Shown in pieces: positions 5,467 to 40,430 of a stretch of DNA of 47,220 bases. The position numbers and the translations under genes were made by a program. Under the pieces are notes generated by a model that saw only the letters and a list, made by a program, of their open reading frames with translations, was not told where the DNA came from and did no database searches. The number at the start of each line of letters is the position of its first letter. Position 1 is the first letter of the stretch. This DNA is from a virus, in the IMG/VR virus record IMGVR_UViG_3300017917_000963, positions 1 to 47,220 of that record, one strand, 5' to 3'.

Positions 5467-8124
5467 TTACCACTCAAATAAAGTTTGAAAGGTATTATCA
5501 GTATTAGTAGCTGACGCTAAATCCCAATCCAATACACCCAACAAGTTATCAACTTTGCCATCAATCACTGTGGCTTCCATTTCAGCATCATCAAATGGCA
5601 ATTCTTTAAACCAAGCAGGTAAATGTATCTCGTCTGTAGGATAACCAATCGAAGTCCAACCCAATGCATTTGACTTTAGTTTACACACAATGGTTTTCAT
5701 GCCATCAACAATTTGCAAACTATAATTGTCACCGTTCATCTTACGTAGGTTGTTCCAGTTCAACGCCGCACGAACGTGACCTGGCATATTTGCCTTGCCT
5801 TCGCGTTCTTCTTTCTTACCATACATAGTCAAATTGTTCACACGCTTAGGCGAACCTTTTTCCCAACCTGGTCGCTCCTTGAATGCATACTTGAACTCTC
5901 GAATCTTTTCTACTACTTGATCTTTACCTGCACCAGTTAATACATCATGCAAAATGTCACTTAAGAAGTTTTGTATGACCACAGGAGTGTCTGATCTTTT
6001 TAAGTCCAACCCCATGGCTTTGACTTTGCCTGGCTTACCATCAATATCTACACGTTTACCTTCTTTATCGATGATCATTACAGCATAACGTTTCTTGGTA
6101 ATAAACAAACCTTTTGATGCAACAACTTCTCGTCCACCTCGGATTACACTACCCATTTCTCTTGGACAATGGAATGCCTGTTCCATAAACGCTGGAAAAC
6201 TTTGATTGACTTGATCAGCAATAGAGTCATACAGTGCAATACAAGTTTCTTTTGACCATTCCATACGTCCTTCTTCTACTTCTTTCTTTAGCACTGGCCA
6301 AGCTGAGAAGTAACAAGAGTCTGTGTCACCGTAGATGATTGTTTCTCCTACATGATCGTATTTTCCTGTAATACATTCGTTGACGTAAGCATCCATGTGC
6401 TTGGCAATAGCTCGGCCGGTAAGGGTAGTACTTTGACCAATACGCTTATCAAAGAACCTACAACCAGGATTAAGAATAGCACCATACAAACTGTTAAGAT
6501 TAATTTTTTTAACCAGCTGACGCTTGTCCCAATATTCTTCATCTTCTTTGGTCTCACATTCTTTGAGTTTGGCCTGCATTTGTTTACGTTCGGCATACCA
6601 ACGTTTTAACAAGCCAGGAATAATACCTTCACGTTCAAATGTAAAGATTGTACCATTGGCTGAAATAATCCAAGGTTGATTTGAATCGAATACAATCTTC
6701 CATACTTCTGCAGCCGAGTGAACAGTTTCGTCACCATCTTGCCAGTCGATGGTAATTTCTGTACCACGTTGCTGTTCCATTACAGCAGTATATTCTAATG
6801 TAGCAAACAACCCTTCCCAGGCTGCTGCAAAACTAGCACCTCCTCGCATTTTGTCGGAGATGTAGTTGTTGGTCATTGTGGGTCTAAGTTGACCAATGAT
6901 TGTTTCCGGCCCCATGTTAAGAGCACGGATCGCTGACGGGTACAATGAGTTGATGTCGATTGACCCAATGTATTCGTGTATGCCTTTTTTGGGGTAAGCA
7001 ACGTAGGCACCTGCGGCTTGTGTATCTTCATCTGTGAGTCTTTCCTTACGATTAGGTACAACCATTCCACGTTCGTGGGCTTCATTAATAATAGCTTGCT
7101 CTGTTACTGCTACGGCTCCCATTGTGGTTTGTAGCAACACTGTGTTTTCATGTGCCAGTGTATTGGCCAAATCCAAAAACTTTAACTTGGCATCTAGTTT
7201 GGCCAACAACATAGTATCTTGTCTGTTGTATTCAATAAACGTTTTAAAGTTTTGATTGTACAACTGATCCAATGTGCCTTCAAATGCCGTCTTGCGTTCA
7301 TCCAGTTCGTATTCACCAATGGCATCCAAACTATAACTATGACGTTCTTCGTATGTATACTTGCGATACAGTTGCATATAGTCCATATGCACACGTCCAA
7401 TCAAATCATAAGTCTCTTGTTCTGCACCAAAGCGTTCAAACATACGCTTTTTAGGATACTGATTCCACAAACACATTCTACGTGTATCGTCTTTGCTTAA
7501 TACACGAGTGATACGATTAATGGTGTAAGGGATATCAAAGCCCTCTGAGTTCCATCCACTTAAAGCATCTGCATCTTCAATTAGGTCTAAGAACACATTG
7601 AGCATGTCTGCTTCATTGGTGAACAACATACAGTTTTCAAACTCGGCGCAAATTTCTTCGGCTGTAGCTTGACTCATATGTTTAGGAGGAATAACTAGCG
7701 TAACCATTTGTTCTAGCCAACCCAAATACACTGATATAGCAGTGATTGGATTAAATGGATCTTCAGGTCGACTAAATCCACGTTCAGGATCAAAGTCGAC
7801 CTCAATGTCAAAAAATGCTGTATGTAATCGAGGACCGTCTTGCCCTTTATAGTTTTCTTCCAAGCAACGGAAGATGGGATTGATATCCGACTCGTACAAT
7901 TGCTTGCCCGATTGGATACGCATTTCTTTGCGGAATTCTTTGTTGTTGCGTGTTGAAAAACGACTTACAGGCGTTCCATAGATTGATTGGAACTTGCCTC
8001 TTGGGTCATCATAATAGAAAATGTAGTTGGCTGGATATTCGCGATACTCTCTACGTCCATCCTTGCGCTCAACTACATGTATGCGATCGTGTTCACGATC
8101 AAATAGTGCATCAATATAACTCAT
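5467..8124 (-). CDS. 43: DNA polymerase, family B (gp43-like) with 3'-5' exonuclease
   Basis: The 885-aa length matches T4 gp43 (898 aa). Exonuclease motifs are complete: FFDIEVD (Asp106, Glu108), SGWNSEGFD (189-197) and YNRQD (299-303). Polymerase motifs are complete: motif A DINSLYPS (Asp390), motif B Lys540 with NSLYG (544-548) and motif C YGDTDS (Asp600, Asp602). The C-terminus ends in TLFEW, a plausible clamp-binding tail like those of T4-type polymerases. GGAG lies seven bases before ATG. The leader upstream (8125-8196) contains short inverted repeats, and T4 gp43 is known to repress its own translation by binding a hairpin at its ribosome binding site. The gene is followed directly by the methyltransferase-like gene and then the clamp. 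Confidence 0.95.
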   Translation of the reverse strand: MSYIDALFDREHDRIHVVERKDGRREYREYPANYIFYYDDPRGKFQSIYGTPVSRFSTRNNKEFRKEMRIQSGKQLYESDINPIFRCLEENYKGQDGPRLHTAFFDIEVDFDPERGFSRPEDPFNPITAISVYLGWLEQMVTLVIPPKHMSQATAEEICAEFENCMLFTNEADMLNVFLDLIEDADALSGWNSEGFDIPYTINRITRVLSKDDTRRMCLWNQYPKKRMFERFGAEQETYDLIGRVHMDYMQLYRKYTYEERHSYSLDAIGEYELDERKTAFEGTLDQLYNQNFKTFIEYNRQDTMLLAKLDAKLKFLDLANTLAHENTVLLQTTMGAVAVTEQAIINEAHERGMVVPNRKERLTDEDTQAAGAYVAYPKKGIHEYIGSIDINSLYPSAIRALNMGPETIIGQLRPTMTNNYISDKMRGGASFAAAWEGLFATLEYTAVMEQQRGTEITIDWQDGDETVHSAAEVWKIVFDSNQPWIISANGTIFTFEREGIIPGLLKRWYAERKQMQAKLKECETKEDEEYWDKRQLVKKINLNSLYGAILNPGCRFFDKRIGQSTTLTGRAIAKHMDAYVNECITGKYDHVGETIIYGDTDSCYFSAWPVLKKEVEEGRMEWSKETCIALYDSIADQVNQSFPAFMEQAFHCPREMGSVIRGGREVVASKGLFITKKRYAVMIIDKEGKRVDIDGKPGKVKAMGLDLKRSDTPVVIQNFLSDILHDVLTGAGKDQVVEKIREFKYAFKERPGWEKGSPKRVNNLTMYGKKEEREGKANMPGHVRAALNWNNLRKMNGDNYSLQIVDGMKTIVCKLKSNALGWTSIGYPTDEIHLPAWFKELPFDDAEMEATVIDGKVDNLLGVLDWDLASATNTDNTFQTLFEW

Positions 8125-9761: not shown

Positions 9762-10187
9762 TTATTTTCCAGCCTTTGCTAAGGCTGCTCCTTTGTTAAA
9801 GCTAGGTGACCAAGGACTCATTCCATCAACGCCACCACGTGCTCGTGACCAGTTGTATCCGGCTCTATGCCCTGAACAGTCCTTGGTACACTCACTACCT
9901 AAAAAAGTTAATTCATCTAATTGTTCTTCGCGCACTTTAGTAGCAACATTTTTTGCCTTGCCTCTGCGTTCAGGATTAGGGTCTTCTCTACGTTTCTTAG
10001 CTGCTGCTGATGCTCGGCCTTTTTTACCTAGAGCATGAGCCTTTGACTGTGGTAAACATTTGGGTTTGCCTTCTGAGTCACTGCCTCTAGCGCAGTCTCC
10101 ACGAATTTTGCCATCGGGTCCAAAGCGTACCCACTTTTCTTTAAACCATTTGCGCAGGTCTTCAGAGATAAATTCTTCAGCTCTCAT
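9762..10187 (-). CDS. Leader-bearing basic protein with two Cys-pair modules (141 aa)
   Basis: The N-terminus MRAEEFISE|D matches the leader shared by this cassette, with a prohead-protease-type site after Glu9. Two small Cys-pair modules follow: Cys32/Cys44 in a Lys/Arg-rich region, and Cys100/Cys104 (SECTKDCSGHRAGY). They are separated by hydrophobic-x-Glu sites at 85-87 (VRE) and 90-92 (LDE). The protein is strongly basic, which would suit binding packaged DNA. I recognise the modules as common in marine myophage proteins but cannot name a function. It overlaps the preceding gene by four bases. Confidence 0.65.
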   Translation of the reverse strand: MRAEEFISEDLRKWFKEKWVRFGPDGKIRGDCARGSDSEGKPKCLPQSKAHALGKKGRASAAAKKRREDPNPERRGKAKNVATKVREEQLDELTFLGSECTKDCSGHRAGYNWSRARGGVDGMSPWSPSFNKGAALAKAGK

Positions 10188-10714
10188 TTTTTACTCTTGT
10201 TGCCCCAGTTGGCGGCACCTTTTTTACGACACTGAACCAGTGCACCTGAAGCATAAGCCGATGGCCAAACTTTATATCGACTTTTTACTTTTCGGTAGCA
10301 AGCATCTTGTTTTTCATCTATTTGATCTTCTGCTACACCTTTTTTAGCATTATGTGTTGCCCATGCATCTTTAACACGAGCCTGATCTGCACGTAATCTA
10401 CGCTCAACTGGATCCATAAAGTCTGTGTCGTCTGGATGTATTCTAGTTGGAGGAGTCGAACTGCTTGGCACCTTAGGTTTTGTCTTTGGCTTTTCATATC
10501 CGTATTCTTTTTCAAGATCGTATACTTCGCCTTCTGCTATAGCTTGTTCGTGAACTGTTTGATCGCCTTTGATCAAAGACCAATGTCTGCGAGCCCATTC
10601 ATCTTTGCTGATTTTATAACGACTATAGAAAGCCACAGGCTCCATATTTTTCCAGTCTTGATATTCAATATCAAGCTCGCTCATGCGACTTTCAAACAGT
10701 TCATTAAGTATCAT
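10184..10714 (-). CDS. Leader-bearing protein ending in a basic Cys-pair module (176 aa)
   Basis: The start MILNELFE|S has a hydrophobic-x-Glu site within eight residues. Further such sites occur at 59-61 (IAE|G), 127-129 (VAE|D) and 132-134 (IDE|K). The C-terminal module from about 135 contains Cys139 and Cys162 with KVKSRYKVWPSAYASGALVQ between them, a sequence type I associate with marine phage proteins, and ends in a Lys-rich tail. The middle is Pro/Ser/Thr-rich linker. Overlaps of four bases on both sides show coupled translation. Function is unknown; packaging in the head is inferred from the leader and neighbours. Confidence 0.6.
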   Translation of the reverse strand: MILNELFESRMSELDIEYQDWKNMEPVAFYSRYKISKDEWARRHWSLIKGDQTVHEQAIAEGEVYDLEKEYGYEKPKTKPKVPSSSTPPTRIHPDDTDFMDPVERRLRADQARVKDAWATHNAKKGVAEDQIDEKQDACYRKVKSRYKVWPSAYASGALVQCRKKGAANWGNKSKK

Positions 10715-14592: not shown

Positions 14593-15033
14593 TTATGCTC
14601 GATCTTCCTTTAAAAATGATTTCAACATCCAACCGTGCTTGCCTTGAGCATCAATACGCCCAGCAACAAAATCAGCAATGCCTTGTTGGTCTTCTGCGTC
14701 GGCTGCATCAAAACATTGATTCAACAAATCAATCAAGGTCTGGTTGTCAGCCAACAATTCTGTAATCATTAAACGAGCACGTGGAACTTTGGTTTGTCCA
14801 CCAATCAAGCTCAATTCCTGAAAGCGTTCAAAACTGCCAGGAGTATATTCTTCAAGAATACGAATGTATTCTGCTGTAGGGTCCAACGCTTCGTATACTT
14901 CTTCGTATACTTTGCCAAAGAATTTGTGATATTGACTAAAGTCAGGGCCTTCTACGTTCCAATGAAAGAACTGCGCCTTGATAACAAACGCATATTGCGT
15001 GGCCAATAACTGTTTTAATAAATCACTTAGCAT
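14593..15033 (-). CDS. dps: Dps/ferritin-like DNA-protection protein
   Basis: The start is set at ATG 15031-15033 (MLSDLLKQLL): the frame is open further upstream, but that part overlaps another gene and lacks homology, and the resulting 146 aa suits the family. The Dps ferroxidase signature is complete: FHWNVEGPDF, then YHKFFGKVYEEVYEALD and AEYIRILEEY, supplying two His, the Asp and the Glu of the intersubunit iron site. Dps forms 12-mers that oxidise and store iron and may bind DNA. It overlaps the preceding small gene by 11 bases and sits inside the cassette of putative head-packaged proteins without carrying the leader itself. Protection of phage DNA from oxidative damage early in infection is the likely role. 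Confidence 0.85.
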   Translation of the reverse strand: MLSDLLKQLLATQYAFVIKAQFFHWNVEGPDFSQYHKFFGKVYEEVYEALDPTAEYIRILEEYTPGSFERFQELSLIGGQTKVPRARLMITELLADNQTLIDLLNQCFDAADAEDQQGIADFVAGRIDAQGKHGWMLKSFLKEDRA

Positions 15034-15220
15034 TCTTTTTTCCCTGTTTCTTTTTGTATTCTTTTGGCGTATTCGGTGTCGGATCTGCGCCAGTAGTGTA
15101 TTTACCTGTGAAGAAGTTTCCACCATCTCTTCTTTGCACAGCACCCATTGGCATGGCAATTGTGGCTATACCGCCGCTGGATGTGCCACCTGATGATTCC
15201 ATTATTTCATGAATTTTCAT
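15023..15220 (-). CDS. Small leader-bearing Gly/Ser-rich protein (65 aa)
   Basis: The N-terminus MKIHEIME|S has a prohead-protease-like site after Glu8, followed by a Gly/Ser-rich segment (SSGGTSSGGIATIAMPMG) and a Lys-rich C-terminus (EYKKKQGKKNAK). It has no catalytic motif. It overlaps dps by 11 bases and the upstream 98-aa gene by 14 bases. Size, basic tail and leader resemble the small internal proteins of T4 heads, which is the best guess for its role. Confidence 0.55.
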   Translation of the reverse strand: MKIHEIMESSGGTSSGGIATIAMPMGAVQRRDGGNFFTGKYTTGADPTPNTPKEYKKKQGKKNAK

Positions 15221-15534: not shown

Positions 15535-16722
15535 TTAAAGGCTGAACGGATCTATAATGACAATTTGGCCGTTGTCTCTACGACCTAGATTTTCGATAGA
15601 ACTTAGATCTAGCGGTGCTTGTCCGCCAATGGCATCTTCGAGATCTTGTGTGGCATAAACCAAGCCGTCAACTTGCTGTTCGCTTAGTTCAGGTGGCCGT
15701 TGGTTATTTTTATAAAATGCGTTAAGAGCATGTTCGCCGCGCGGTAGTGCTCTCATTAAACCTTCAATGTAATCTAGCACACGCTCTTCGCCTGATACTG
15801 GGTTTAAATATTCCATTTCGTACACAAAGTAAGTTTCGCCATCTACGGCAAAATCACCTGCGTTGTATATGCGTGGATAGTGTGGATTGCGCTGATTACG
15901 CATGAAGAAGCCTACATAGGTTTTCACTATGTCTTCACGCTCATCTTCGCCTATGCCCACAACTTTGACCACTGTGTTGCGTGGACTTAAAAATGCTATT
16001 TGATCACGGCCTTCGCCAAGATACTTGTAGCCGCGATCAGTAAAATAATCTTGTATTCTTTGACTTATTGATAGTTCGTCATCGGCATTGATTTCTTCAA
16101 GTTTTTCAACTCCGCCTTTGGCCTTGATATTGCGCCATAGTTCTTTTCCAGGTGTTAATTGTGCAGTGCTGGGTTTAATAGTATTGCCCAACCCATGAGC
16201 ATATTTGTACATAGACGACGCAATACCTTGTCTGCGGTATTCAGGATTGACATAAACCATACTTGCTACCAAGTCTTTAAACAACAAGCCTCGAGAGACA
16301 AATCTAGTATAGCCCACTTCTTTGGGTTTAGGATTACCTTGCCAGTCAGTAGCCTGATCGTCATACACATGCACAAACAGTGTTGGTTTCTTTGCCCACT
16401 CTCGGACTTCCGCTTCTAATCTATATCGGCCATCCAAGATTGATTGCGTATCTTTCCAACCCGTGGTCAATACTTTTTTATTGACATATTCTTGTACTGG
16501 TACATTTTGAACTTGATGCATTCTACGCAACACAGCACGGGCAACATCATCAATAAACTTTTGATCATTGCGCTGTGCTTGTAAGAACTTTCTGTTGGCT
16601 ACAAAACGAAAGAGATCTTCGTAGCTTTGGAATTGTATGTTGTTTTGTTGAATTAGTTTTTCAATACTGTTGACAGCATTGGTAAAGTCTATGCCTTCGG
16701 TTAAAAACTCTTGAGCTCGCAT
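15535..16722 (-). CDS. Leader-bearing GNAT acetyltransferase-kinase-like fusion (395 aa)
   Basis: The leader is MRAQEFLTE|G. A GNAT domain follows (about 100-200), with YVNPEYRRQGIASSMY; the RRQGIA at 163-168 is the acetyl-CoA pyrophosphate loop. The C-terminal domain (about 230-395) looks like a minimal protein-kinase or aminoglycoside-kinase fold: YKYLGEGRDQIAF as a glycine loop, VVKV with Lys253, a YFVYEMEYL hinge, LDLSSIENLG (Asp372, Asn377) as the catalytic loop and IIDPF (Asp391) in place of DFG. The protein ends four residues after that Asp, so there is no activation segment or C-lobe remainder. It overlaps the upstream gene by one base (TAATG). A head-delivered modifier of host proteins is inferred. 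Confidence 0.7.
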   Translation of the reverse strand: MRAQEFLTEGIDFTNAVNSIEKLIQQNNIQFQSYEDLFRFVANRKFLQAQRNDQKFIDDVARAVLRRMHQVQNVPVQEYVNKKVLTTGWKDTQSILDGRYRLEAEVREWAKKPTLFVHVYDDQATDWQGNPKPKEVGYTRFVSRGLLFKDLVASMVYVNPEYRRQGIASSMYKYAHGLGNTIKPSTAQLTPGKELWRNIKAKGGVEKLEEINADDELSISQRIQDYFTDRGYKYLGEGRDQIAFLSPRNTVVKVVGIGEDEREDIVKTYVGFFMRNQRNPHYPRIYNAGDFAVDGETYFVYEMEYLNPVSGEERVLDYIEGLMRALPRGEHALNAFYKNNQRPPELSEQQVDGLVYATQDLEDAIGGQAPLDLSSIENLGRRDNGQIVIIDPFSL

Positions 16723-17702
16723 TATACATACTTTCTTAACGCATCTGGGCCTAGATCTTGAATACGATCAGCTGGTATTCTGGTAGTTGAAAAGTGCCAG
16801 CCAAATTCATAGGCCAACGGAACACCACGCACATCAACTTTCAACAAGGTAAATTCTTCATCTTTATTTTTGGCTTTGGCATCTAGCCAACCATATACTG
16901 TGTATAATTCGTCTCGTAATTTTTTTGGATCACCTTCATCTACTACCATGAATGCTTTGCCATCACGGGGATCCAGTCCTGAGTACATGATTTCTTCTGC
17001 GTTTTCCAAGCCAGTGATATGATAAGCAGTTGTGTAAGAGTGATCAGATCGATCTTCTACTGCTTCCTGCATTTGAGATTCCATCATCTCTGCACCTACT
17101 CTGTCAGCAATTACCGACCAGGCTTCTGCATTGGCGTTGTCGTTGACCACTAGTTCTCGCTGTTCAGTCTGGTACAGTCTTTCACCTGCTTCAAATAAAG
17201 CACGGATAATAGCAGTTGCGGCACCTTTGTACTGACCAGCTGTGGCATCTTCTACAACAACGATCATTGATTCACCTTCAGCATAGGCATTAAGTGTGAG
17301 ATAAAATGCCCCACGCACAGTGTCACTTCCAGCAAAAGCACTAGCAGCGCCTTGTTGTCCTTTGACTGTGGTTAATCCCACTCCTTCTACAACTGACTTG
17401 CCGTAGAGTTTGACATCTGGATATAGTTCAGCAAATGCATCTTGTGCCACTGCTACAATTTGCTGTGGTTGCATTTGTTCAAAATCCACTGACTCTTTGA
17501 CCAACTGTTTTGTTTTGATTTCTTTGACTGATCCCACATGGTGATCTTGAATGTTGAACTGCTGTTTCAATATGGTTCTTGCCTGTTGAGCATTAGAGGC
17601 CCATACCTGCGCATCAACATAGCCCACATAGTTGGCCTGACTTACACGAACTTTTGCGCCCCATAATTTAGCTGACTCTGTTATAAACTCTTTAGATCTC
17701 AT
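16722..17702 (-). CDS. Leader-bearing protein with GNAT-like and ADP-ribosyltransferase-like domains (326 aa)
   Basis: ATG at 17700-17702 is chosen because it gives the leader MRSKEFITE|S. Residues 14-60 match the cassette's small alpha/beta module. A second site, VKE|S, is at 68-70. Residues about 130-207 look GNAT-like (GAFYLTLNAY, GAATAIIRALFEAG, LVVNDNANAEAWSVI). After AVE|D at 214-216 comes an ART-like fold: AYHITGLENAEEIMYSGL with His228, and a terminal FTLLKVDVRGVPL...RIPADRI pattern typical of RNA 2'-phosphotransferase/ART-like domains. T4 packages the ADP-ribosyltransferase Alt in its head, giving a precedent. Catalytic identity needs structure comparison; the ART call is less sure than the leader. 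Confidence 0.6.
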   Translation of the reverse strand: MRSKEFITESAKLWGAKVRVSQANYVGYVDAQVWASNAQQARTILKQQFNIQDHHVGSVKEIKTKQLVKESVDFEQMQPQQIVAVAQDAFAELYPDVKLYGKSVVEGVGLTTVKGQQGAASAFAGSDTVRGAFYLTLNAYAEGESMIVVVEDATAGQYKGAATAIIRALFEAGERLYQTEQRELVVNDNANAEAWSVIADRVGAEMMESQMQEAVEDRSDHSYTTAYHITGLENAEEIMYSGLDPRDGKAFMVVDEGDPKKLRDELYTVYGWLDAKAKNKDEEFTLLKVDVRGVPLAYEFGWHFSTTRIPADRIQDLGPDALRKYV

Positions 17703-18055: not shown

Positions 18056-18574
18056 TTACTTATTACTCTGTGCTACATAGGCCGGGCCTACATAACCTTC
18101 TGGATACTTTGCAAAATGTTGTATGGTACGGTGCCAGCCCTCTAGCAATTCATATCCTTGTGATGTTTTTATTATAATCACTGGTTCTTTTCTTATACCG
18201 CCCTGTTGCTGTGCTAGTTTGGCCTGTGTAGCGTGACGTTCAGCATCCTTGCTTAGTGGGTTCATGGTGCTAGGAATTTTTGGAGTCGCCTTACCTCCAG
18301 ATCTTAAATGTAGATTTTTTAATGTATTTGGCTCCCACATATCCATGGTAAACTTCATCTCGGGTATCAGTTGCCATTTGGTGTTAGGCGATAATCCAGC
18401 ATCAGTGATAGTTTGTATAACAGCATCTTTTAATCTGTATTGAACACTTTCAAATCGTGCTAAATTTTTATACAACCAATCCCAAACCACATAACGAGGC
18501 CAAACAGGCAGTAATTTTTGTATGTAATCTAAAAGTTTTACACGTAATTCAACCAAAAACTCGTTAGCTCTCAT
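18056..18574 (-). CDS. Leader-bearing ParB/sulfiredoxin-like protein (172 aa)
   Basis: The leader is MRANEFLVE|L. The C-terminal part shows a ParB N-terminal-like pattern: HATQAKLAQQQGG, a strand pair EPVIIIKTSQGYELL and then EGWHRTIQHF, where ParB/Srx-fold proteins have GxxRxxA. ParB-fold domains bind or hydrolyse nucleotides and occur in phage DNA-delivery proteins. The N-terminal part (10-90) is helical with many aromatic residues and is not recognised. The start overlaps the stop of the 687-aa gene by four bases; that gene carries a related motif, suggesting paralogous effectors. Confidence 0.6.
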   Translation of the reverse strand: MRANEFLVELRVKLLDYIQKLLPVWPRYVVWDWLYKNLARFESVQYRLKDAVIQTITDAGLSPNTKWQLIPEMKFTMDMWEPNTLKNLHLRSGGKATPKIPSTMNPLSKDAERHATQAKLAQQQGGIRKEPVIIIKTSQGYELLEGWHRTIQHFAKYPEGYVGPAYVAQSNK

Positions 18575-20634
18575 TTTTTCTTACCTGCTTTCATGTTGGC
18601 GCACCAGTGATACATTTTGCCTTTTTCACCGCCATACTTTTTAGCCTTTGCTCTTAAGCTACTTACGCTACCTGAGCAACTAGCACCTGCACGTTTTACA
18701 CGTCCAGGACGGCTTTTGCCTCGGACTTTGCCATCAGCAAAGTTTTCTTTAACAGTGTCTAAAAATGCTACTTCGTCTGGAATGCCAAGTTTTTTAATAC
18801 TCCAAAGTATTTGTTTGTATTTGTCATCGCCGAGTCCAGCCCAAAATTGTTGACTACCAATAGCTTCTCGATAGGATTCTGGGCGTAGATATTTTTTATA
18901 TTCTACAGACCAGGGCGGTGATTTTTCCAGAACATTTTGTAGGGTAATCAGGCTGAAATCCCAAGTGGGTTGTTTTGTTTCCCAACCATTGTCTCCATGT
19001 GGATGAGTTATAAAAATAGCACCACGCTTGATTAGTTCTGGAACATTTAACCGACGTCGGGGTGTGTTAAATGTTGCGTTTTCAAACACGTCTGGATCAA
19101 AGTCATCTGCTGAAATAAAGTATGAGGTGCCGTCTCTGTGCTGTAGTTGCACAGCATCATCTTCTGACTCAACTTGTTGTATGCTCCAGCCCATGCTGGT
19201 TAATACTGATTCAATCTGTGGTTGTTTTTCTGCGGCATTCCACCAACGATTGGCCAAAACAAAAATAGGATCTGGCACGTCATCGTTGTTGTCACGTTCA
19301 GGACTGGTTGCAAATTCTGCTATGTGTCTTTTTGGATCAAACTCTCGACCAGCCATGGCATCAATGATCTGCTGATATTTGTGATTGCCAAGCCATCCTG
19401 GTTGATTTAACTTCTTTTTTACAAGAGGGATAAATTCAGGACGCTCACGCCAGTTCCAGGACGCACCGTTTAAAGGAGTGACAAGGCTGAATCCAGGTCG
19501 ATTGGGATCACCGTTGTTGTCAGTTACTTTTAGATACTTGCCATAGATTTCATCAAAGTTTAATTTACGAGCATATCCTTCGGCTACTTTTTTAACACCA
19601 ACATAGGCTCGTATTGAAGGAATACCTAATACCTTAGCGGCATTGAGTCTGTGATATCCATCTAATATATATCGATCTCCAATGACAATAGGAGGAGCCT
19701 TGGAAAAATCCATTTGACGATAGCGTTCTACTTTTTCACGATCCAGTTTTGGCAATTCACTTGGAATAGAATTAGTTGGTACATTTTTTAATACAAAGTG
19801 ATCAAATGTGTTTTCAATATAGTCAGTGTAGTCTTGATGTAAGTTAGGATCGTGATGTGTTTTTAGATAAGCAATCATATCTGCCACTGATACTTTGTTG
19901 CTGGTACTTTCCATTATTCCTGTACCACGACGCAATCTCAAATCGTAGTCCACATCGCTTTCATAACGTTCAATGTAATCTTGATAATAACGTTGTGCGT
20001 CAGCTGGAGTATCAGCTTCAAAACGATCAACTATTTTTGTAGGTTGATCAGCATGGTATATTTCATAACTGGTGTTTAGGCGTTGTCTGGCACGAGCCAT
20101 GCGTTCTTGTCTAGTATCCACTTGACGACCAGCACGACTCAAATAGCGTTCTAATCTATCTCTACTGATTTCGTTGACTGTATCTTTGCGCACTAAATCA
20201 TAAGTCACTACTTCACCGGCGTCTTTTCTGTGTACTTGATAGCCCCAAGATGATGCATATCGTTGTACCATACGATCATACAATCGAGCACGACTTTGAC
20301 TGTTTTGCCCAGCACCAACTTGTTTGCTGGCATTGAATGTTACACGTTCGGGATTTTCTTTTCTGATAAATTTTTGTATGGCAGTCAATACTGTGGCAAA
20401 GATTCTTTGAGCATCACCTTCTCCAGTGAGTTCTAGGCTGTAATTGCGCCAAAACGACACATGCCATGCTTCATCTTCGCCAGTGGGTCCAGCAGATTCC
20501 AACTCAAATGATATTGAAAGATTGCTACCATCATCCAGTTTGGTATAAGCATCATATGCATCATATTCGCTTTTTTCCCAGACCAGTGGATAAGGTTGAT
20601 CAAATGCTTCTATTACAAACTCATTGGCTCTCAT
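18571..20634 (-). CDS. Leader-bearing multidomain protein with ParB-like domain and Cys-pair tail (687 aa)
   Basis: The leader is MRANEFVIE|A. Residues about 30-150 have a GNAT-like topology (HVSFWRNYSLEL, IFATVLTAIQKFI, RMVQRYASSWGYQV). A small alpha/beta module (188-236) ends at IME|S (240-242). A ParB/Srx-like domain follows (PPIVIGDRYILDGYHRLNAA, residues 314-333). Sites VAE|G (350-352), IAE|F (438-440) and VKE|N (628-630) separate further regions. The C-terminal tail is a basic Cys-pair module with Cys653 and Cys678. Overlaps of four bases join it to both neighbours. The site-domain-site architecture looks like a polyprotein matured in the prohead; this is inference. Confidence 0.6.
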   Translation of the reverse strand: MRANEFVIEAFDQPYPLVWEKSEYDAYDAYTKLDDGSNLSISFELESAGPTGEDEAWHVSFWRNYSLELTGEGDAQRIFATVLTAIQKFIRKENPERVTFNASKQVGAGQNSQSRARLYDRMVQRYASSWGYQVHRKDAGEVVTYDLVRKDTVNEISRDRLERYLSRAGRQVDTRQERMARARQRLNTSYEIYHADQPTKIVDRFEADTPADAQRYYQDYIERYESDVDYDLRLRRGTGIMESTSNKVSVADMIAYLKTHHDPNLHQDYTDYIENTFDHFVLKNVPTNSIPSELPKLDREKVERYRQMDFSKAPPIVIGDRYILDGYHRLNAAKVLGIPSIRAYVGVKKVAEGYARKLNFDEIYGKYLKVTDNNGDPNRPGFSLVTPLNGASWNWRERPEFIPLVKKKLNQPGWLGNHKYQQIIDAMAGREFDPKRHIAEFATSPERDNNDDVPDPIFVLANRWWNAAEKQPQIESVLTSMGWSIQQVESEDDAVQLQHRDGTSYFISADDFDPDVFENATFNTPRRRLNVPELIKRGAIFITHPHGDNGWETKQPTWDFSLITLQNVLEKSPPWSVEYKKYLRPESYREAIGSQQFWAGLGDDKYKQILWSIKKLGIPDEVAFLDTVKENFADGKVRGKSRPGRVKRAGASCSGSVSSLRAKAKKYGGEKGKMYHWCANMKAGKKK

Positions 20635-23600
20635 TGTTTGTTTTTCCGATCCAACATGTTGTAATGACCACTGTCTAACTTCAAAGCGTTAACAGCCATT
20701 TGCATTACTGTGTTTTTTGCACTCGGTGGCACAGCGGCAAAGTTAGCATAGCCCAGTTTCTTTGCAGCGGCATCCATGGCCGCACGAGCTCGTTGAGCAT
20801 CGTTAATGCTTTCAGTCACTGTTTGTGCAAGACGCCAGCCATAGTTTTCTGTAGTCTCAGGCATGCCTTGATTGCGTAGCCAGTTAGTGAATTTGTCTCC
20901 AGCATCATCAGCACTGTCGGCGTTGTATCTCAACACTACTTGGCCATTTCTGCGATCCACAATTTCGTATTGAACACGATCTTGATCTATTGTAAAGTCA
21001 ATGTCACGTACTCGAGGTTCAACACGTTGTTGTAGTTGTTTACTGTCCACACGATTGTCTATGGCCTGCTTGACATTTGAGGCTTTTTGTACTGTGAAGT
21101 TGCCAATGTCCAAGTTTTTGTCCTGCAAGTAAGTGATAGCAAAGTCCACAGCCTGTGACTGTGAGCTGGCTCGGAATGTGTAGAATGGCAACATGCTGTG
21201 CTTGTTGATGATCACATAGTCCTTGGGTTGAGCAATCTGTTTGGCCAACTGTGCTCTACGGCTCAGCTTGGGTTCTGGCTCTGCATCACTGCCACTGTAG
21301 GGTTCAACATAGAATGGTATGACATTGGTGTATTTTTCGTAGGCCAAGTCAGCTGCCGCACCACGGGTGGGTGCATCAATGATTTCCAAGGTTTCTTGGT
21401 TGTCATTGCGAATAACACTCCAACGACCTGTGTTGGTACCCACATCACGCAGTTCATAGGCCTGTTTGAAGTCCATCATTGAACTAGCCGGGCTTACACG
21501 AGCTTTGGCACGTTCCAACGCATCCATTTCTGTGTAACCGGAAAACACCACGCCTGGTACTGGTTTCTTAGTAAATCTATTGTATAGCTTCCATTCGCTC
21601 TTGGGACCCATGCCACCGGGCACTTCTTTTGAAATAACTCGTTCGGCCCACTGCTTTTTGAGTTCTTCGGCTGTGAGTTCACCCGAACTAAACTTGGCAA
21701 ACAAGTTTAGATCTTCGCCACCTTCAGGAGCAATCAACTTGTATAACTTTTTGTAGTATTCAGGACGCTCTAGGTCAGGTCTACCAGCCAAGTACATGGC
21801 ATAGGCAAAGCGACGCATGGTCGATGCTAGGATATCTTGCTCGCCTTGATCGCCTGCACTTAGATAATCGCCTCCTGGGCTTCGGAATTCAATGTAACCA
21901 GGCTTGATGTGTGCCGATGTATACTTTGAGTTACCCACACCTTGCTGTACATACTTTTGTGCTAGTTCAATGAGATTGTTTCTCATCAACTCCATAGCTG
22001 ATGCTATTTTAGTATCGCCGCGATTTTTGCTACCGGCAACGTTTTGTTTGAGTTTCTTGAGAGCACTGTCAGTGTAAGTATTGGCTGCACGACCGAACTT
22101 TTCCAACACATACTGGTCACCCATAAACAGAATTAGTTTTAGATAGTCAACATCGCCACCTTTGAACGGTATTGATATGCCCATGTGCAGACCTGTTGAG
22201 CTGTTGGTATAAGCATCGCCATCTGAGTTGGCCCAGTCTATGATGGCTTCTAGTTGTTCAATGGCTTTGTTTAGGGGCATTGGTGGACTCACAAGTTCAA
22301 GTCCAAAATCTTCGGAGTCATCTGGGCTCAAACTTGAGTCGGGTTCCAACACATACTCGTTGGGCACACGTTTTTTAGTGTGATAGCCATAGCCCACTTC
22401 CACAGGCATGCCTGTGACTTGTTCGATTTCTCTAGCAATATCTGACCATTCGCGTCTGCCGCCATTGCCACCACCACCGGTCATGTAGGGCCAATCTAGG
22501 CCATATTCGTTCATGACGTCTGACATCCAGCGTAGACCAATGTCTGAGAAGAAACTTGAATCGTCTCCTTCCCAGTTTTCCTGGAAGTTTTCCAATGCTT
22601 GATCGTAGATGCTGTCTTGAAGGTCTATACTGGCTTCAACTTCTTCATCCAGCACTTCATTGGCAATGCTTCGAGCTTCACTGTATTGGCTGGTCATTTC
22701 CAACTGTTCTTCACTCATTTCAGAGCCGGTGATTTCCTTGTTGGCGTAGCGTTTATGCAACTCCATAACAGCGTCTGCTTGTTCATCATCTAGTCCTATG
22801 CCATCTGTCAATGCTGAGAGAATACGCTCGCTCATTGGGCGTTCTTCCAACCATACTTCACGCACTAGATCTTCAGATTCATTTTCAAAATCACGAATGA
22901 CTTGATCATCACGCCACTCAAAGTAAGCATTGTCCAACTTTTCACGCAGTCTGTCAGCACCGCGATCGCTCAAGCCATTGCCAAAGTCGTCATGCATGAA
23001 AAAATCAATGACTTCGTCAATCGAACTTGTACGCTCGTCGTAGTCCATGTCGTATTCCATTTCACCGTCATCTTCGTCGGCCTGTGTGTCACGGAATATT
23101 AGCTCTGCTTCAAAGCCAGCCTGGATGCCTTCGGCTTCGGGACTGTTGGCAAACTTGCGTAGAGCACTAGGACTCATTTTGACTTCGTCTAGTTGTTCTG
23201 ACTCATCTACGTTGTAGGTGGGATCAGTTTTGATCTTACGACCTAGACGACGTTTAGGATCCAGAGGATCAATGTCTGTGACATCCAAACCAGTGGCTTT
23301 TAAGTTGTCAATAAACTTGTGCTCTGTGTCTTCGTCGCCAAAGCTGACAATAGTACTAGGCGGCCCTTGTCCAAAGTCATGTTTGCCCAAGCCTTCTAAG
23401 TCACTGATATGCTGACCCAGCTTGTACCAATCATACACATCTGAAACATCCACACGCAACGTACCTGCGGGCATAGTGGGTTTGGTCTCAGGACCCGGCG
23501 GATTGTCAGCACTGTAGTCTTCTTTAGAAATACGTCCAGTTTCTTTGAACTCACGCAGGGCATTCTTAAGGCCTTTGATCAACAATTGAGGATGTCCTTG

Positions 23601-25574
23601 ACTGTCTGTGTGCAAGCTCATTTTGTTGGCTTCTTTGCCCACTGCTCCTGGACGTACATCCACTGATAATGCGTTGCTGAACTGTGGTAGTTTTGCTTGC
23701 GCCTTTGTAGGAATATAACCCGACGCTTCGTTTTGTTGTGCTTTCTTTTGTAGCTGATAAAGACGACTTTGATTCTTTGCGTTGGCCGATCCGGGACCTT
23801 GACCTTGTGCTCTAATAAAATTCTGTAGTTCTTGATCCAGTTCGGCCTTTACTCCGGCTCGGTTCATGTTCTTGACAGTTTGCGCTGTGCGTGCCACTGT
23901 TTGTGCATCTTTAACAGCACCTGCTGTAGTTGTAGCACATCCGGGAGTGCCTGCTATGCAAGCGGCAGCTGCTAGTGCGCCTAGTTTTTGTTTGATGCCT
24001 TCATCAACTTCTTCAAATTTGTTAAAATCAGCGGAACGACGTGTTTCACTACCTTGACTAGGAAATTGTCCAGTTGATTTAACCGGTGGTTGAGATTGTT
24101 GTTGATTTATTTCTGCTTGTGCTTTATCATTAGCTATTGCTCGGAATTTATTTAAAGTTCTTGTATCTAATAGTTGACCAGTTGCCTGAGCACGTTGAAC
24201 TAGTGTATCAAAATGTTTTTTAACAAGTTGATTTTTTTGGATCTGAACTTGTTGTGTTGGTTGTTGCACATTGTCTGCTCTTGCAGATCCTCCTCCTAAC
24301 GCTAATCCAGCACCTAATATACCAGCGGCTACATTTTGTTTCCATCCTTCTTCCACTGGTGATTCAGCAAATAACTCGGGATGAGCCTGCCCATATTCAC
24401 GCATGAGCACACCGGCTTTGGCGTTGGCTTCATTTTCCCACTTAGATCCTGTTTCACCAGCATCCGCAGGCATGTCTGCAACTTCACCTTGACGTTGATG
24501 TGTAAGCTCATGTGCCACTGTACGCAAAATGTCCATGACATGGCGATTGGCCAAACTCACAATCAACTCATTGGTGTCATGATTGTAACTGCCAAATGTT
24601 CGGTTACGTTCTGACCAAGCAGGATCACGCTTGAAACGAATCGCAGGATCGTTTTCAATGTTTAACTTGGCAACACAAAAACGCACAAAGTCTCGTACTG
24701 TGTCTTCGGTTGCGGGTGCAGATTCTCTTATGCTTTCTCCACCACCACCATCACCACCAGCGTCTACAGCTGAAGCATCTGTGCCTGAGTTGAAACTGTA
24801 GCCAGGATACCAATATCCGCCAAAGCCGTATTTTGTTTTCTTTTTACTTTTCTTTTTCCGGCGCTCGTTTAAACTAAGCTCTGCATCTTGTGCGGCCTGT
24901 CGTGCATCATACAACTTCTTGATCATGCCTTGGTTGCGTAGCATTTTGTAGGCCAAGTTTTCAGCACCTAATTCACCGTGAGCATCTAATCCAGCTTGAC
25001 GCATGGTTTTGATTTTACGTGCCAATTCTGCGATCTTTTCGCCATTGCCTGATGCTACAGCAGATTCAATTCTGTGTCCAATGTCTTCAAACTTTGACTT
25101 TACAGCTTCATCGTTGACTGTGGCTTTGCGTTTGAGAGGAATCTTTACCCAGTCATTGTCCATCACTGAATAAATGCCCTGACTCACTGGTTGTTTGCGT
25201 GCATCTTCTACATAGAGCTCTACGTCATAGCCGCCGATGGTAATATTGTGTTGATCGTTGTACTGATACTTTTTGGCATCAAACAACTCACGATAAACGT
25301 CAGATTCATCTGCCTGCGGAATGTCTACAACTAAATGTAGATCAATGTCTGAGTGTGGTGTGTATGTGTATCCGGCGTTGCTGCCAGACACTGTGATGTC
25401 TTTTACTTCTAGATCACTGAGTCCTAGAAATTCCTTGAAATCCTTGGCGATCACCAGCAAACGCTCGCGCACTTCAGGCTTCATTTTTTCGCCGCTCCAA
25501 ATAGCAGGATTTAATGTGTCATTGAATTTAACTGCGTCGGCTAAATTATAGGAATCTAATTCTGTGATGTTCAT
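20631..25574 (-). CDS. Giant polyvalent protein: nucleotidyltransferase, HExxH metalloprotease, amidoligase-like and repeat modules (1647 aa)
   Basis: Residues 60-125 are a nucleotidyltransferase: SGSNAGYTYTPHSDIDLHLV with Asp76 and Asp78, and Glu119 in DVELYVED. Residues 290-400 are a zincin-type protease with His355-Glu356...His359 (VAHELTHQ) and a probable third ligand Glu382 (ENEANAKAG). Two hydrophobic signal-like segments follow at 410-432 and 526-551. From 818 an amidoligase/GCS-like fold is read from GFEAELIF (Glu822, Glu824), an acidic insert, then LEPDSSLSP, GLELVSPPMPL, STGLHMGISIPF and GYIEFRSPGGD. Four small alpha/beta modules end the protein (1325-1590). Hydrophobic-x-Glu sites lie at 284, 404, 409, 525, 791, 797 and 1588, between these parts. 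The N-terminal leader MNITELDS is atypical. Such polyvalent proteins are known to be delivered by phages. Confidence 0.7.
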   Translation of the reverse strand: MNITELDSYNLADAVKFNDTLNPAIWSGEKMKPEVRERLLVIAKDFKEFLGLSDLEVKDITVSGSNAGYTYTPHSDIDLHLVVDIPQADESDVYRELFDAKKYQYNDQHNITIGGYDVELYVEDARKQPVSQGIYSVMDNDWVKIPLKRKATVNDEAVKSKFEDIGHRIESAVASGNGEKIAELARKIKTMRQAGLDAHGELGAENLAYKMLRNQGMIKKLYDARQAAQDAELSLNERRKKKSKKKTKYGFGGYWYPGYSFNSGTDASAVDAGGDGGGGESIRESAPATEDTVRDFVRFCVAKLNIENDPAIRFKRDPAWSERNRTFGSYNHDTNELIVSLANRHVMDILRTVAHELTHQRQGEVADMPADAGETGSKWENEANAKAGVLMREYGQAHPELFAESPVEEGWKQNVAAGILGAGLALGGGSARADNVQQPTQQVQIQKNQLVKKHFDTLVQRAQATGQLLDTRTLNKFRAIANDKAQAEINQQQSQPPVKSTGQFPSQGSETRRSADFNKFEEVDEGIKQKLGALAAAACIAGTPGCATTTAGAVKDAQTVARTAQTVKNMNRAGVKAELDQELQNFIRAQGQGPGSANAKNQSRLYQLQKKAQQNEASGYIPTKAQAKLPQFSNALSVDVRPGAVGKEANKMSLHTDSQGHPQLLIKGLKNALREFKETGRISKEDYSADNPPGPETKPTMPAGTLRVDVSDVYDWYKLGQHISDLEGLGKHDFGQGPPSTIVSFGDEDTEHKFIDNLKATGLDVTDIDPLDPKRRLGRKIKTDPTYNVDESEQLDEVKMSPSALRKFANSPEAEGIQAGFEAELIFRDTQADEDDGEMEYDMDYDERTSSIDEVIDFFMHDDFGNGLSDRGADRLREKLDNAYFEWRDDQVIRDFENESEDLVREVWLEERPMSERILSALTDGIGLDDEQADAVMELHKRYANKEITGSEMSEEQLEMTSQYSEARSIANEVLDEEVEASIDLQDSIYDQALENFQENWEGDDSSFFSDIGLRWMSDVMNEYGLDWPYMTGGGGNGGRREWSDIAREIEQVTGMPVEVGYGYHTKKRVPNEYVLEPDSSLSPDDSEDFGLELVSPPMPLNKAIEQLEAIIDWANSDGDAYTNSSTGLHMGISIPFKGGDVDYLKLILFMGDQYVLEKFGRAANTYTDSALKKLKQNVAGSKNRGDTKIASAMELMRNNLIELAQKYVQQGVGNSKYTSAHIKPGYIEFRSPGGDYLSAGDQGEQDILASTMRRFAYAMYLAGRPDLERPEYYKKLYKLIAPEGGEDLNLFAKFSSGELTAEELKKQWAERVISKEVPGGMGPKSEWKLYNRFTKKPVPGVVFSGYTEMDALERAKARVSPASSMMDFKQAYELRDVGTNTGRWSVIRNDNQETLEIIDAPTRGAAADLAYEKYTNVIPFYVEPYSGSDAEPEPKLSRRAQLAKQIAQPKDYVIINKHSMLPFYTFRASSQSQAVDFAITYLQDKNLDIGNFTVQKASNVKQAIDNRVDSKQLQQRVEPRVRDIDFTIDQDRVQYEIVDRRNGQVVLRYNADSADDAGDKFTNWLRNQGMPETTENYGWRLAQTVTESINDAQRARAAMDAAAKKLGYANFAAVPPSAKNTVMQMAVNALKLDSGHYNMLDRKNKQ

Positions 25575-32862: not shown

Positions 32863-33867
32863 TTATTTGATTTGAGTCCAAACACGTTCGCGAATTTGTC
32901 GTGTTAATGCGTCAGGCAAAGGAACATAGTCTAGATCTGCAGCAGATTGACGTCCGTTTTTAAATGCCCAATCAAAAAACTTCAATGCTTCTTGACTTTG
33001 TTGTTTGTTGGCAGGATCTCGATACATGAGAATAAAGCTGGCCGTGGTCACTGGCCATACAGCATCACCACGCTGATCCACAATGCTTAGACCCATGCCC
33101 GGTACTGAAAACCAATCAGCACCAGCTGCCGCAGCAGAAAATGTGGCATCGTCAGGATGAACCCACTTGCCTGACTTGTTTTGTAATTGTAGGTATGTCA
33201 GTTTGTTCTTTTTGACATAGGCATATTCTACATAGCCAATTGAACCTTTGACCCGGTTTACATTGGCAGCAACGCCTTCGTTGCCCTTGCCACCCATAGC
33301 AGTGGCCGGTAACCATTTCACAGCAGGGCCTCGACCCACGCGATCTTCCCACTCCTTTGACACGGTACTCAAATAGTCTGTCCAGTTAAATGTTGTGCCA
33401 GAGCCGTCAGCACGATGAACTACAGTTATTAGTTGATCTGGCAATTTTTTACCTGGGTTCAACGCTTGTAATTTAGGATCATTCCACTTTTTAATATTGC
33501 CCAAGAACACGTCGGCCATTACAGCACCAGTGATGCGTAGTTCTCCGGGCTTGAATCCGTCTAGGTTAACAATAGGCACTGTGCCACCAATGATTGCAGG
33601 AAATTGTACCAGCCCATCCTTGGCAAGGTCTTCGCCTTTGAGTGGAGCATCTGTGGCGCCAAATGTAACTGTTCGAGCTTTGATTTGACGAATACCGCCG
33701 GAGCTTCCTATGCTTTGATAGTTAAGACCAATGCCTGAAGCTCGTTTATAATCTTCTGCCCACTTGGCATAGATTGGGTAAGGGAATGTTGCACCAGCAG
33801 CAGTGATGTCTGCGGCCTGTACACCCACGGCCACTGTGGCCAACAATGCGACTAAAAATTTTTTCAT
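32863..33867 (-). CDS. pstS: Phosphate ABC transporter periplasmic binding protein PstS
   Basis: ATG at 33865-33867 follows AAAGGAA and gives a clean signal peptide, MKKFLVALLATVAVGVQA, before ADITAAGATFPYPIYAKWAE, the family's N-terminal signature. Phosphate-binding segments IGSSGGIRQI, FGATDAPL and the HRADGSGTTFNWTDYL loop are intact; length is 334 aa, normal for the family. In the periplasm it would feed phosphate to the host PstCAB importer. Cyanophages carry host-type pstS for the same purpose. A Pho-box-like element lies upstream, so expression may follow host phosphate starvation. The sequence looks proteobacterial, which is the best host clue in the window. Confidence 0.93.
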   Translation of the reverse strand: MKKFLVALLATVAVGVQAADITAAGATFPYPIYAKWAEDYKRASGIGLNYQSIGSSGGIRQIKARTVTFGATDAPLKGEDLAKDGLVQFPAIIGGTVPIVNLDGFKPGELRITGAVMADVFLGNIKKWNDPKLQALNPGKKLPDQLITVVHRADGSGTTFNWTDYLSTVSKEWEDRVGRGPAVKWLPATAMGGKGNEGVAANVNRVKGSIGYVEYAYVKKNKLTYLQLQNKSGKWVHPDDATFSAAAAGADWFSVPGMGLSIVDQRGDAVWPVTTASFILMYRDPANKQQSQEALKFFDWAFKNGRQSAADLDYVPLPDALTRQIRERVWTQIK

Positions 33868-33906
33868 TGAATTTCCTTTGTAAGATATGTGCATCAGCAC
33901 AAAATT

Positions 33907-39689: not shown

Positions 39690-40430
39690 TTGAGTAGACA
39701 AAGAGCAGCAAAATCACAACGTCGTAATAACACTATGACACATCAAGAAAACACCATAAGATTTGATCAAGTAAAACCAGTAAAGCAAAAGCCCATTGAT
39801 ATCGTGCCACGCACAAGGAATCAAGAGCGTTTGGTATTGGCTTTACAACAAGAAGATCAGTCTATAGTGGTCACAGCCGGGCCAGCAGGAACAGGAAAAA
39901 CATATTTGGCTATGTTGGCCGCCGTAAAAGCCTTTAGAGAAGGTGATTGCAAACGTATTGTACTAACACGCCCAGCAGTGGGTGTAGAAGATGAAAAGCA
40001 TGGGTTCTTACCTGGAGATTTAAATCAAAAGATGGATCCATGGGTTCGACCACTTACAGATATCTTGCGCGAATACTATCGCCAACAAGATATTGCAGAG
40101 ATGATGGAAGAACAACGTATAGAAATTGCTCCACTGGCATTCATGCGTGGACGCACTTTCAAAGATAGTTTTATCATTGCCGACGAGATGCAAAATGCAA
40201 CTCCAAGTCAAGTAAAAATGCTGATGACCCGTATCGGCGAAGGCTCTAAGATTGTAATTACGGGCGACGTAGAACAGGCCGATCGTAATCGCGGCAACAA
40301 TGGTTTGATGGACCTTTGTTCACGATTAGAGAAAGGGGGTGTAAAGGGTATAGCTGTGTGTCATTTGGACAACAAGGACATTCAGCGTCATAGAATCATT
40401 GATTCTGTTTTAAAACTTTACACTGATTAA
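39690..40430 (+). CDS. phoH: PhoH-like ATPase
   Basis: TTG at 39690 is chosen as start because CGGAG lies about eight bases upstream; the next ATG is 16 codons in. Walker A is GPAGTGKT (64-71), Walker B FIIADEMQ and a sensor-like ITGDVEQADR follow. PhoH proteins are RNA-helicase/NTPase-like and widespread in marine phages; a link with phosphate stress or RNA turnover is suggested but not proven. The first 40 residues are basic. It is the first gene of the only plus-strand transcript here, and the radical SAM gene follows 14 bases later. Confidence 0.9.
   Translation: MSRQRAAKSQRRNNTMTHQENTIRFDQVKPVKQKPIDIVPRTRNQERLVLALQQEDQSIVVTAGPAGTGKTYLAMLAAVKAFREGDCKRIVLTRPAVGVEDEKHGFLPGDLNQKMDPWVRPLTDILREYYRQQDIAEMMEEQRIEIAPLAFMRGRTFKDSFIIADEMQNATPSQVKMLMTRIGEGSKIVITGDVEQADRNRGNNGLMDLCSRLEKGGVKGIAVCHLDNKDIQRHRIIDSVLKLYTD

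Follow-up and report, generated by a model that had tools for sequence, protein, structure and literature searches.

A leader-bearing acetyltransferase-like and kinase-like protein as a probable capsid-targeted cargo polyprotein of a giant phage

The protein P0001, encoded at positions 15535-16722 (minus strand) of a 47,220-base virus fragment (the window), is quite probably a capsid-targeted cargo polyprotein that would be cut during head maturation and whose modules would be injected as separate proteins; its packaging, cleavage, injection, activity, and targets are all predicted here. The 9-residue leader would bring the chain into the prohead core, and a gp21-type prohead protease would cut after Glu9, Glu78, and Glu210, each at the end of an [L/I/V]-x-E triplet. 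Cleavage would free a helical module, a GNAT module, and a minimal kinase. Injected together with the DNA, the freed modules would then work independently as enzymes, probably against host proteins, ahead of phage gene expression. Since a single leader would serve the whole chain, new modules could be gained or exchanged in the interval from the leader to the following cleavage site.

A wider proposal is regarded as likely, with somewhat less assurance. Trans-cleaved cargo polyproteins would be a general delivery system of T4-superfamily phages, each chain having a single capsid-targeting leader and each exchangeable effector module being preceded by a gp21-type site. New effectors would be taken up in cassette form and set free as individual proteins inside the head. 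If correct, this would account for the loading and diversification of injected effectors in large T4-like phages with no need for each effector to evolve its own targeting signal. It would amount to a plug-in route by which a bacterium receives several enzymes at the same time. A T7-type minimal kinase would join the packaged, zero-time takeover proteins. The [L/I/V]-x-E linkers would allow unknown injected proteins to be found and delimited in many phage genomes, and the mature protein ends would be a concrete, quickly testable prediction.

Genomic setting and leader

The open reading frame originally noted at 15535-16722 exists, but it runs along the minus strand, starting from an ATG and encoding 395 residues. 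A plus-strand reading of the same interval was rejected because of its many stops. The window contains T4-type replication genes (DNA polymerase and clamp loader) together with PhoH (39690-40430) and ClpA-like genes. Its DNA polymerase is closest (~50% identity) to those of Sinorhizobium phage Phosso and Agrobacterium phage Atu_ph07, which are giant phages, and the source of P0001 is a giant phage of the T4 superfamily. Genes for gp21 and gp23 are absent from the window itself, a fragment without head genes, and the T4 late promoter TATAAATA has no occurrence within it. A phage-borne PstS-like phosphate-binding protein is encoded at 32863-33900 (minus strand), and a Ferritin/Dps-like protein is encoded at 14593-15159 (minus strand) within a cluster of leader-bearing genes.

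The leader that had been proposed for P0001 is present as MRAQEFLTE at the N-terminus (residues 1-9; 16696-16722, minus strand). It resembles the T4 capsid-targeting sequence, which points to packaging. The N-terminus of T4 IPII and IPIII is MKTYQEFIAE, and the consensus M[RK]Ax[ED]F[VIL]xE is common to 72 non-redundant leader-bearing proteins in the loci compared. As in T4-type capsid-targeted internal proteins, the leader is short and ends in L/I-x-E. The first 10 residues of T4 IPIII suffice as a targeting sequence, and residues 8 and 10 govern processing (PMC9026906).

It is very unlikely that P0001 is an ordinary, unpackaged cytoplasmic early protein like T7 gp0.7 with a coincidental leader. 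The nearest named kinase family is indeed that of T7 gp0.7, but a leader type found in 72 proteins is hard to reconcile with coincidence, and the kinase of Rhizobium phage RHph_I1_18 also starts with an IAE leader. Furthermore, kinases are on record from the virions of T4-like cyanophages (PMC10665884).

The RHph_I1_18 kinase (L011 1201-1866) has the leader-like start xKSFSEHIAE, and a second kinase-like reading frame (41-1204) adjoins it. Judged from its sequence, this cultured phage may carry a packaged minimal kinase.

Helical, GNAT, and kinase-like modules

The anatomy originally described for P0001 (a leader, a GNAT domain, and a kinase-like fold) was largely right, with a third, helical module missed. 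This module X (residues 10-78; 16489-16695, minus strand) ends in PVQE and was delimited using the AF2 model and a counterpart in locus L003. The counterpart is 79% identical and sits between RGVTE and LNE, in another protein context. GNAT-only fragments were misplaced in a full-length alignment (A3), so the kinase and the part that precedes it (residues 1-210) were modeled one by one. In the AF2 model, a helical unit of its own covers residues 8-72, and the low-confidence segments at residues 72-96, a linker, and 203-210 are probably disordered. Module X gives a weak MtlR match.

The GNAT module spans residues 79-210 (16093-16488, minus strand) with its fold at residues 97-201. The presence of a GNAT domain was confirmed by several lines of evidence. 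Pfam Acetyltransf_7 matches residues 134-175 weakly (E 1.3e-4, under the gathering cut-off), homologous GNAT modules are found in other loci, and Foldseek, given residues 97-201 of the AF2 model, finds GNAT structures (spermidine acetyltransferases) with a probability of 1.0. The module combines the GNAT fold with the Q/R-x-x-G-x-G/A loop, which appears as RRQGIA within the CoA-loop RRQGIAS.

The truncated kinase-like module comprises residues 211-395 (15538-16092, minus strand). Residues 221-394 match phrog_15752, a T7-type protein kinase family, with an E of 1.1e-5, and the same family is matched by 15 of the 15 aligned kinase modules with a best E of 6e-7 (PHROGs). AF2 on the 15-sequence kinase alignment gave a pLDDT of 83.9 and a pTM of 0.78, and the model has the strand and helix order of a kinase and ends past the DFG-equivalent. 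The Foldseek matches of this model are kinases and aminoglycoside phosphotransferases, the best VIA-align Z is 11.8 against MPS1 516-671, and the structure matches in the viral library include phage kinases, T7-like among them. A PDB sequence search with the kinase gave no kinase match by sequence, so that the fold is assigned from structural comparison and PHROGs. Nothing useful came from Pfam on the kinase modules. The model shows a bilobal kinase fold up to the DFG motif. A kinase fold for residues 211-395 is thus well supported by the modeling, in agreement with the original prediction, which would have failed had this region not resembled a kinase.

The glycine-rich loop GEGRDQIAF is located at residues 236-244 (15991-16017, minus strand), and GEGRDQ is invariant in all 15 aligned modules. 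Also invariant are Lys253, the β3 lysine equivalent (15964-15966), Asp372, the catalytic Asp equivalent (15607-15609), Asn378, the catalytic-loop Asn (15589-15591), and Asp391, the DFG-equivalent (15550-15552), all on the minus strand. The protein ends in DPFSL. The residue numbers first assigned to Lys253, Asp372, and Asp391 are correct, the chain stops four residues past Asp391 as stated, and the conservation of these three residues across homologues (15/15) removes the second ground on which the kinase assignment might have been dismissed.

There is no C-lobe past the DFG in the kinase module. Its HRD histidine is missing and the catalytic Asn is at D+6, not D+5, so that catalysis is not certain; enzyme activity is predicted as likely. 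In the kinases of RHph_I1_18 and Pseudomonas phage Astolliot the Asn is at D+5, one residue earlier than in the window kinase. The kinase part is under purifying selection, with a dN/dS of ~0.1 relative to the kinase of L001.

Module exchange and boundary motifs

Kinase relatives with 57-90% identity were obtained from searches of viral contigs. The cultured phages yielded distant kinases only, and no relative was found in bacterial genomes among the stretches matching the search patterns. The kinase directly follows a leader such as MRAQEFIAE in L001, L005, L015, and L022. It is preceded by other GNATs in L002 and L020, by a ParB-like module in L007, L026, and L029, and by other modules, singly or in chains, in L004, L009, L025, and L027. 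The L001 kinase, directly behind the leader, is 89% identical to the window kinase, which stands behind module X and the GNAT; the gain or loss of these two modules therefore looks recent. Because the partners of the kinase change freely between relatives, no fixed pairing of activities appears to be selected.

Two cleavage sites are predicted inside P0001. The first, V-Q-E at residues 76-78 (16489-16497, minus strand), coincides with the boundary of module X relative to L003 and falls in the low-confidence linker. The second, L-E-E at residues 208-210 (16093-16101, minus strand), aligns to the leader end of the stand-alone kinases. Both are located in disordered linkers of the AF2 model.

For fused modules that are known elsewhere right after a leader, the position matching the last Glu of the leader was computed. 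The triplet [LIV]xE is present exactly at 36 of the 43 predicted junction positions, against a background of 1.5% per position. The seven exceptions are three off-by-one duplicates of positive junctions, one FTE, and three positions judged to be alignment offsets. An independent set, found by means of another module, gave the triplet at 15/15 internal upstream junctions and at 23/23 downstream ends, the latter being less independent since these ends are part of the module itself. The kinase modules are preceded by [LIV]xE in 17 of 18 cases with 12 different tripeptides. In the tallied junctions P1 is always E, P3 is only L, I, or V, and P2 is free. A crude test using all alignment ends, many of which are probably not module ends, gave the motif at 84 of 133 positions, whereas 500 random draws averaged 39 and never exceeded 54.

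T4 gp21 cuts after L/I-x-E (PMC9026906). P3 is often Val at the junctions described here, and we infer an extension of the T4 gp21 motif. Four kinase-carrying relatives also have gp21 and gp23 over the family cut-offs, and their gp23 contains YLRE|N or YLKE|N close to where the mature end would be expected. The triplet also occurs within folded modules, for example as the invariant VYE in the kinase hinge, and the motif by itself is therefore no proof of cleavage.

Internal junctions have [LIV]xE but not MRAQEF, the rest of the leader, and the cut triplet itself thus seems to be selected. This pattern bears on the proposal that the internal triplets are functionless scars of gene fusion, left when leader-bearing genes were joined by stop loss or by recombination inside the leader. 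Many of the modules do also exist as separate genes, each with its leader, that lie head to tail, as that proposal would have it. Scars, however, would keep parts of MRAQEF and lose the Glu over time, whereas Glu is found in all of the tallied junctions, and the sequence upstream of the triplet has diverged among relatives at 57-89% identity. An origin as mere scars is accordingly regarded as highly improbable.

The original prediction held that one protein had been fused to deliver two activities. This was not borne out, given that the modules swap freely and their boundaries carry [L/I/V]-x-E, and P0001 is probably not a bifunctional enzyme. Packaging and injection of an uncut, truly bifunctional acetyltransferase-kinase, a "polyvalent" effector with the triplets as mere linkers, is unlikely, less so than the two alternatives above. 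There is precedent for such a molecule in polyvalent proteins, which can join GNAT, kinase, and ParB domains within a single polypeptide and are thought to be injected (PMC5512222), but an uncut effector would not account for a gp21-type motif that is conserved exactly in the linkers with a free middle position or for kinase partners that lack a fixed pairing. Most likely, processing in the head splits the chain into individual proteins, as argued by the free exchange of modules combined with a prohead-protease-type site at their boundaries.

Additional leader-bearing proteins are encoded on the minus strand near P0001. The adjacent protein (16722-17702) begins with MRSKEFITE and has a second predicted site at VKE70, past which the module is 72% identical to a stand-alone MRAREFIVE protein in L001. 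A protein starting with MRANEFLVE is encoded at 18056-18574, and another starting with MRAEEFISE at 9762-10187 (phrog_23735, phrog_727). A 687-residue polyprotein (18571-20634) starts with MRANEFVIE|AFD and has predicted sites at VNE155, IME242, VAE352, IAE440, VFE518, and VKE630. In Vibrio phages, the AFD module is preceded by VNLTE (ValKK3, nt-1) or by LCE (KVP40). Pseudomonas phage PA5oct encodes a homologue of this module whose annotation describes a virion protein detected by MS. Such traces in these Vibrio phages and in Synechococcus phages suggest that the system extends beyond this clade.

Several other modules were observed in these proteins, all on the minus strand where the window is concerned. 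The 687-residue protein (18571-20634) includes a module that is ParB-like (DGYHR), and its C-terminal module (NFADGKV...YHWCANMK), which is basic and contains Cys, is reused in several proteins. The C-terminal module (phrog_727) of the protein at 10184-10714 occurs in >300 cyanophage records with up to 80-90% identity over short stretches; in S-RIM2 it sits in a chain of modules joined by xxE. A 1647-residue protein at 20631-25574 starts with MNITELD and combines an amidoligase domain with an N-terminus that weakly resembles a nucleotidyltransferase. Locus L079 (G009) has a relative of this protein, encoded by a longer reading frame in which the ISDE module is also found, with the same junctions. 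Residues ~225-326 of the 16722-17702 protein (YHITGLENAEEIMYSGLDP) resemble an ADP-ribosyltransferase-type fold when judged by eye, and the C-terminus of the L027 reading frame at 6428-7576 (YLYHATYKPLLKSIQKSGLG) gives the same impression, with only a non-significant Pfam match. If confirmed, these two modules would be Alt-like cargo.

Comparison with known systems

The analogy to T4 Alt that had been drawn for P0001 stands in part. The likeness of being packaged and injected is retained as a prediction, whereas P0001 lacks an ADP-ribosyltransferase and its leader belongs with those of IPII and IPIII. No ADP-ribosyltransferase match was found in P0001 by Pfam or PHROGs, and both enzyme modules have other folds. 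T4 IPI-IPIII and Alt share the leader type and the L/I-x-E motif, and relatives of P0001 have T4-type gp21 and gp23. The T4 proteins as described in PMC9026906 have one cargo per targeting sequence, whereas P0001 has several unrelated modules with a predicted site between each.

A0A6J5LUL6 of an uncultured Caudovirales phage (412 residues), one of the matches in the viral library, has a kinase part that is 91% identical. It is annotated as "NAT_SF domain containing protein", that is, as a GNAT-domain protein only, and the name omits the kinase and the sites. T7 gp0.7 is an early, non-packaged protein with a further host-shutoff region; its family, phrog_15752, is matched over almost the whole module by the kinase of the window. 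Kinase-like proteins were detected in the virions of the T4-like cyanophages S-CREM2 and S-CRM01, that of S-CREM2 being described as APH/ChoK-like, and the passages considered from that report describe no modular polyprotein or cleavage sites for them (PMC10665884).

Polyvalent proteins likewise carry several effector domains per chain with cassette-like variation (Iyer et al. 2017, PMC5512222). They combine GNATs, ParB-like domains, and kinases without the C-terminal subdomain, and their authors drew a comparison to polyproteins released by embedded peptidases (PMC5512222). The kinase of P0001 has also lost this subdomain, and it is without two signature features of the polyvalent-protein kinases: in the strand ETYFVYEMEY/ETYFVYEQEY the Gln is present in some modules only, and there is no conserved His. 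Release of the polyvalent domains is ascribed to embedded peptidase domains, whereas no peptidase is seen in P0001 and its boundaries fit the prohead-protease motif. A prohead protease combined with polyproteins or polyvalent proteins was not found described in the open-access literature searched, and the joining of the polyvalent-type idea with a T4 leader and prohead-protease sites looks new.
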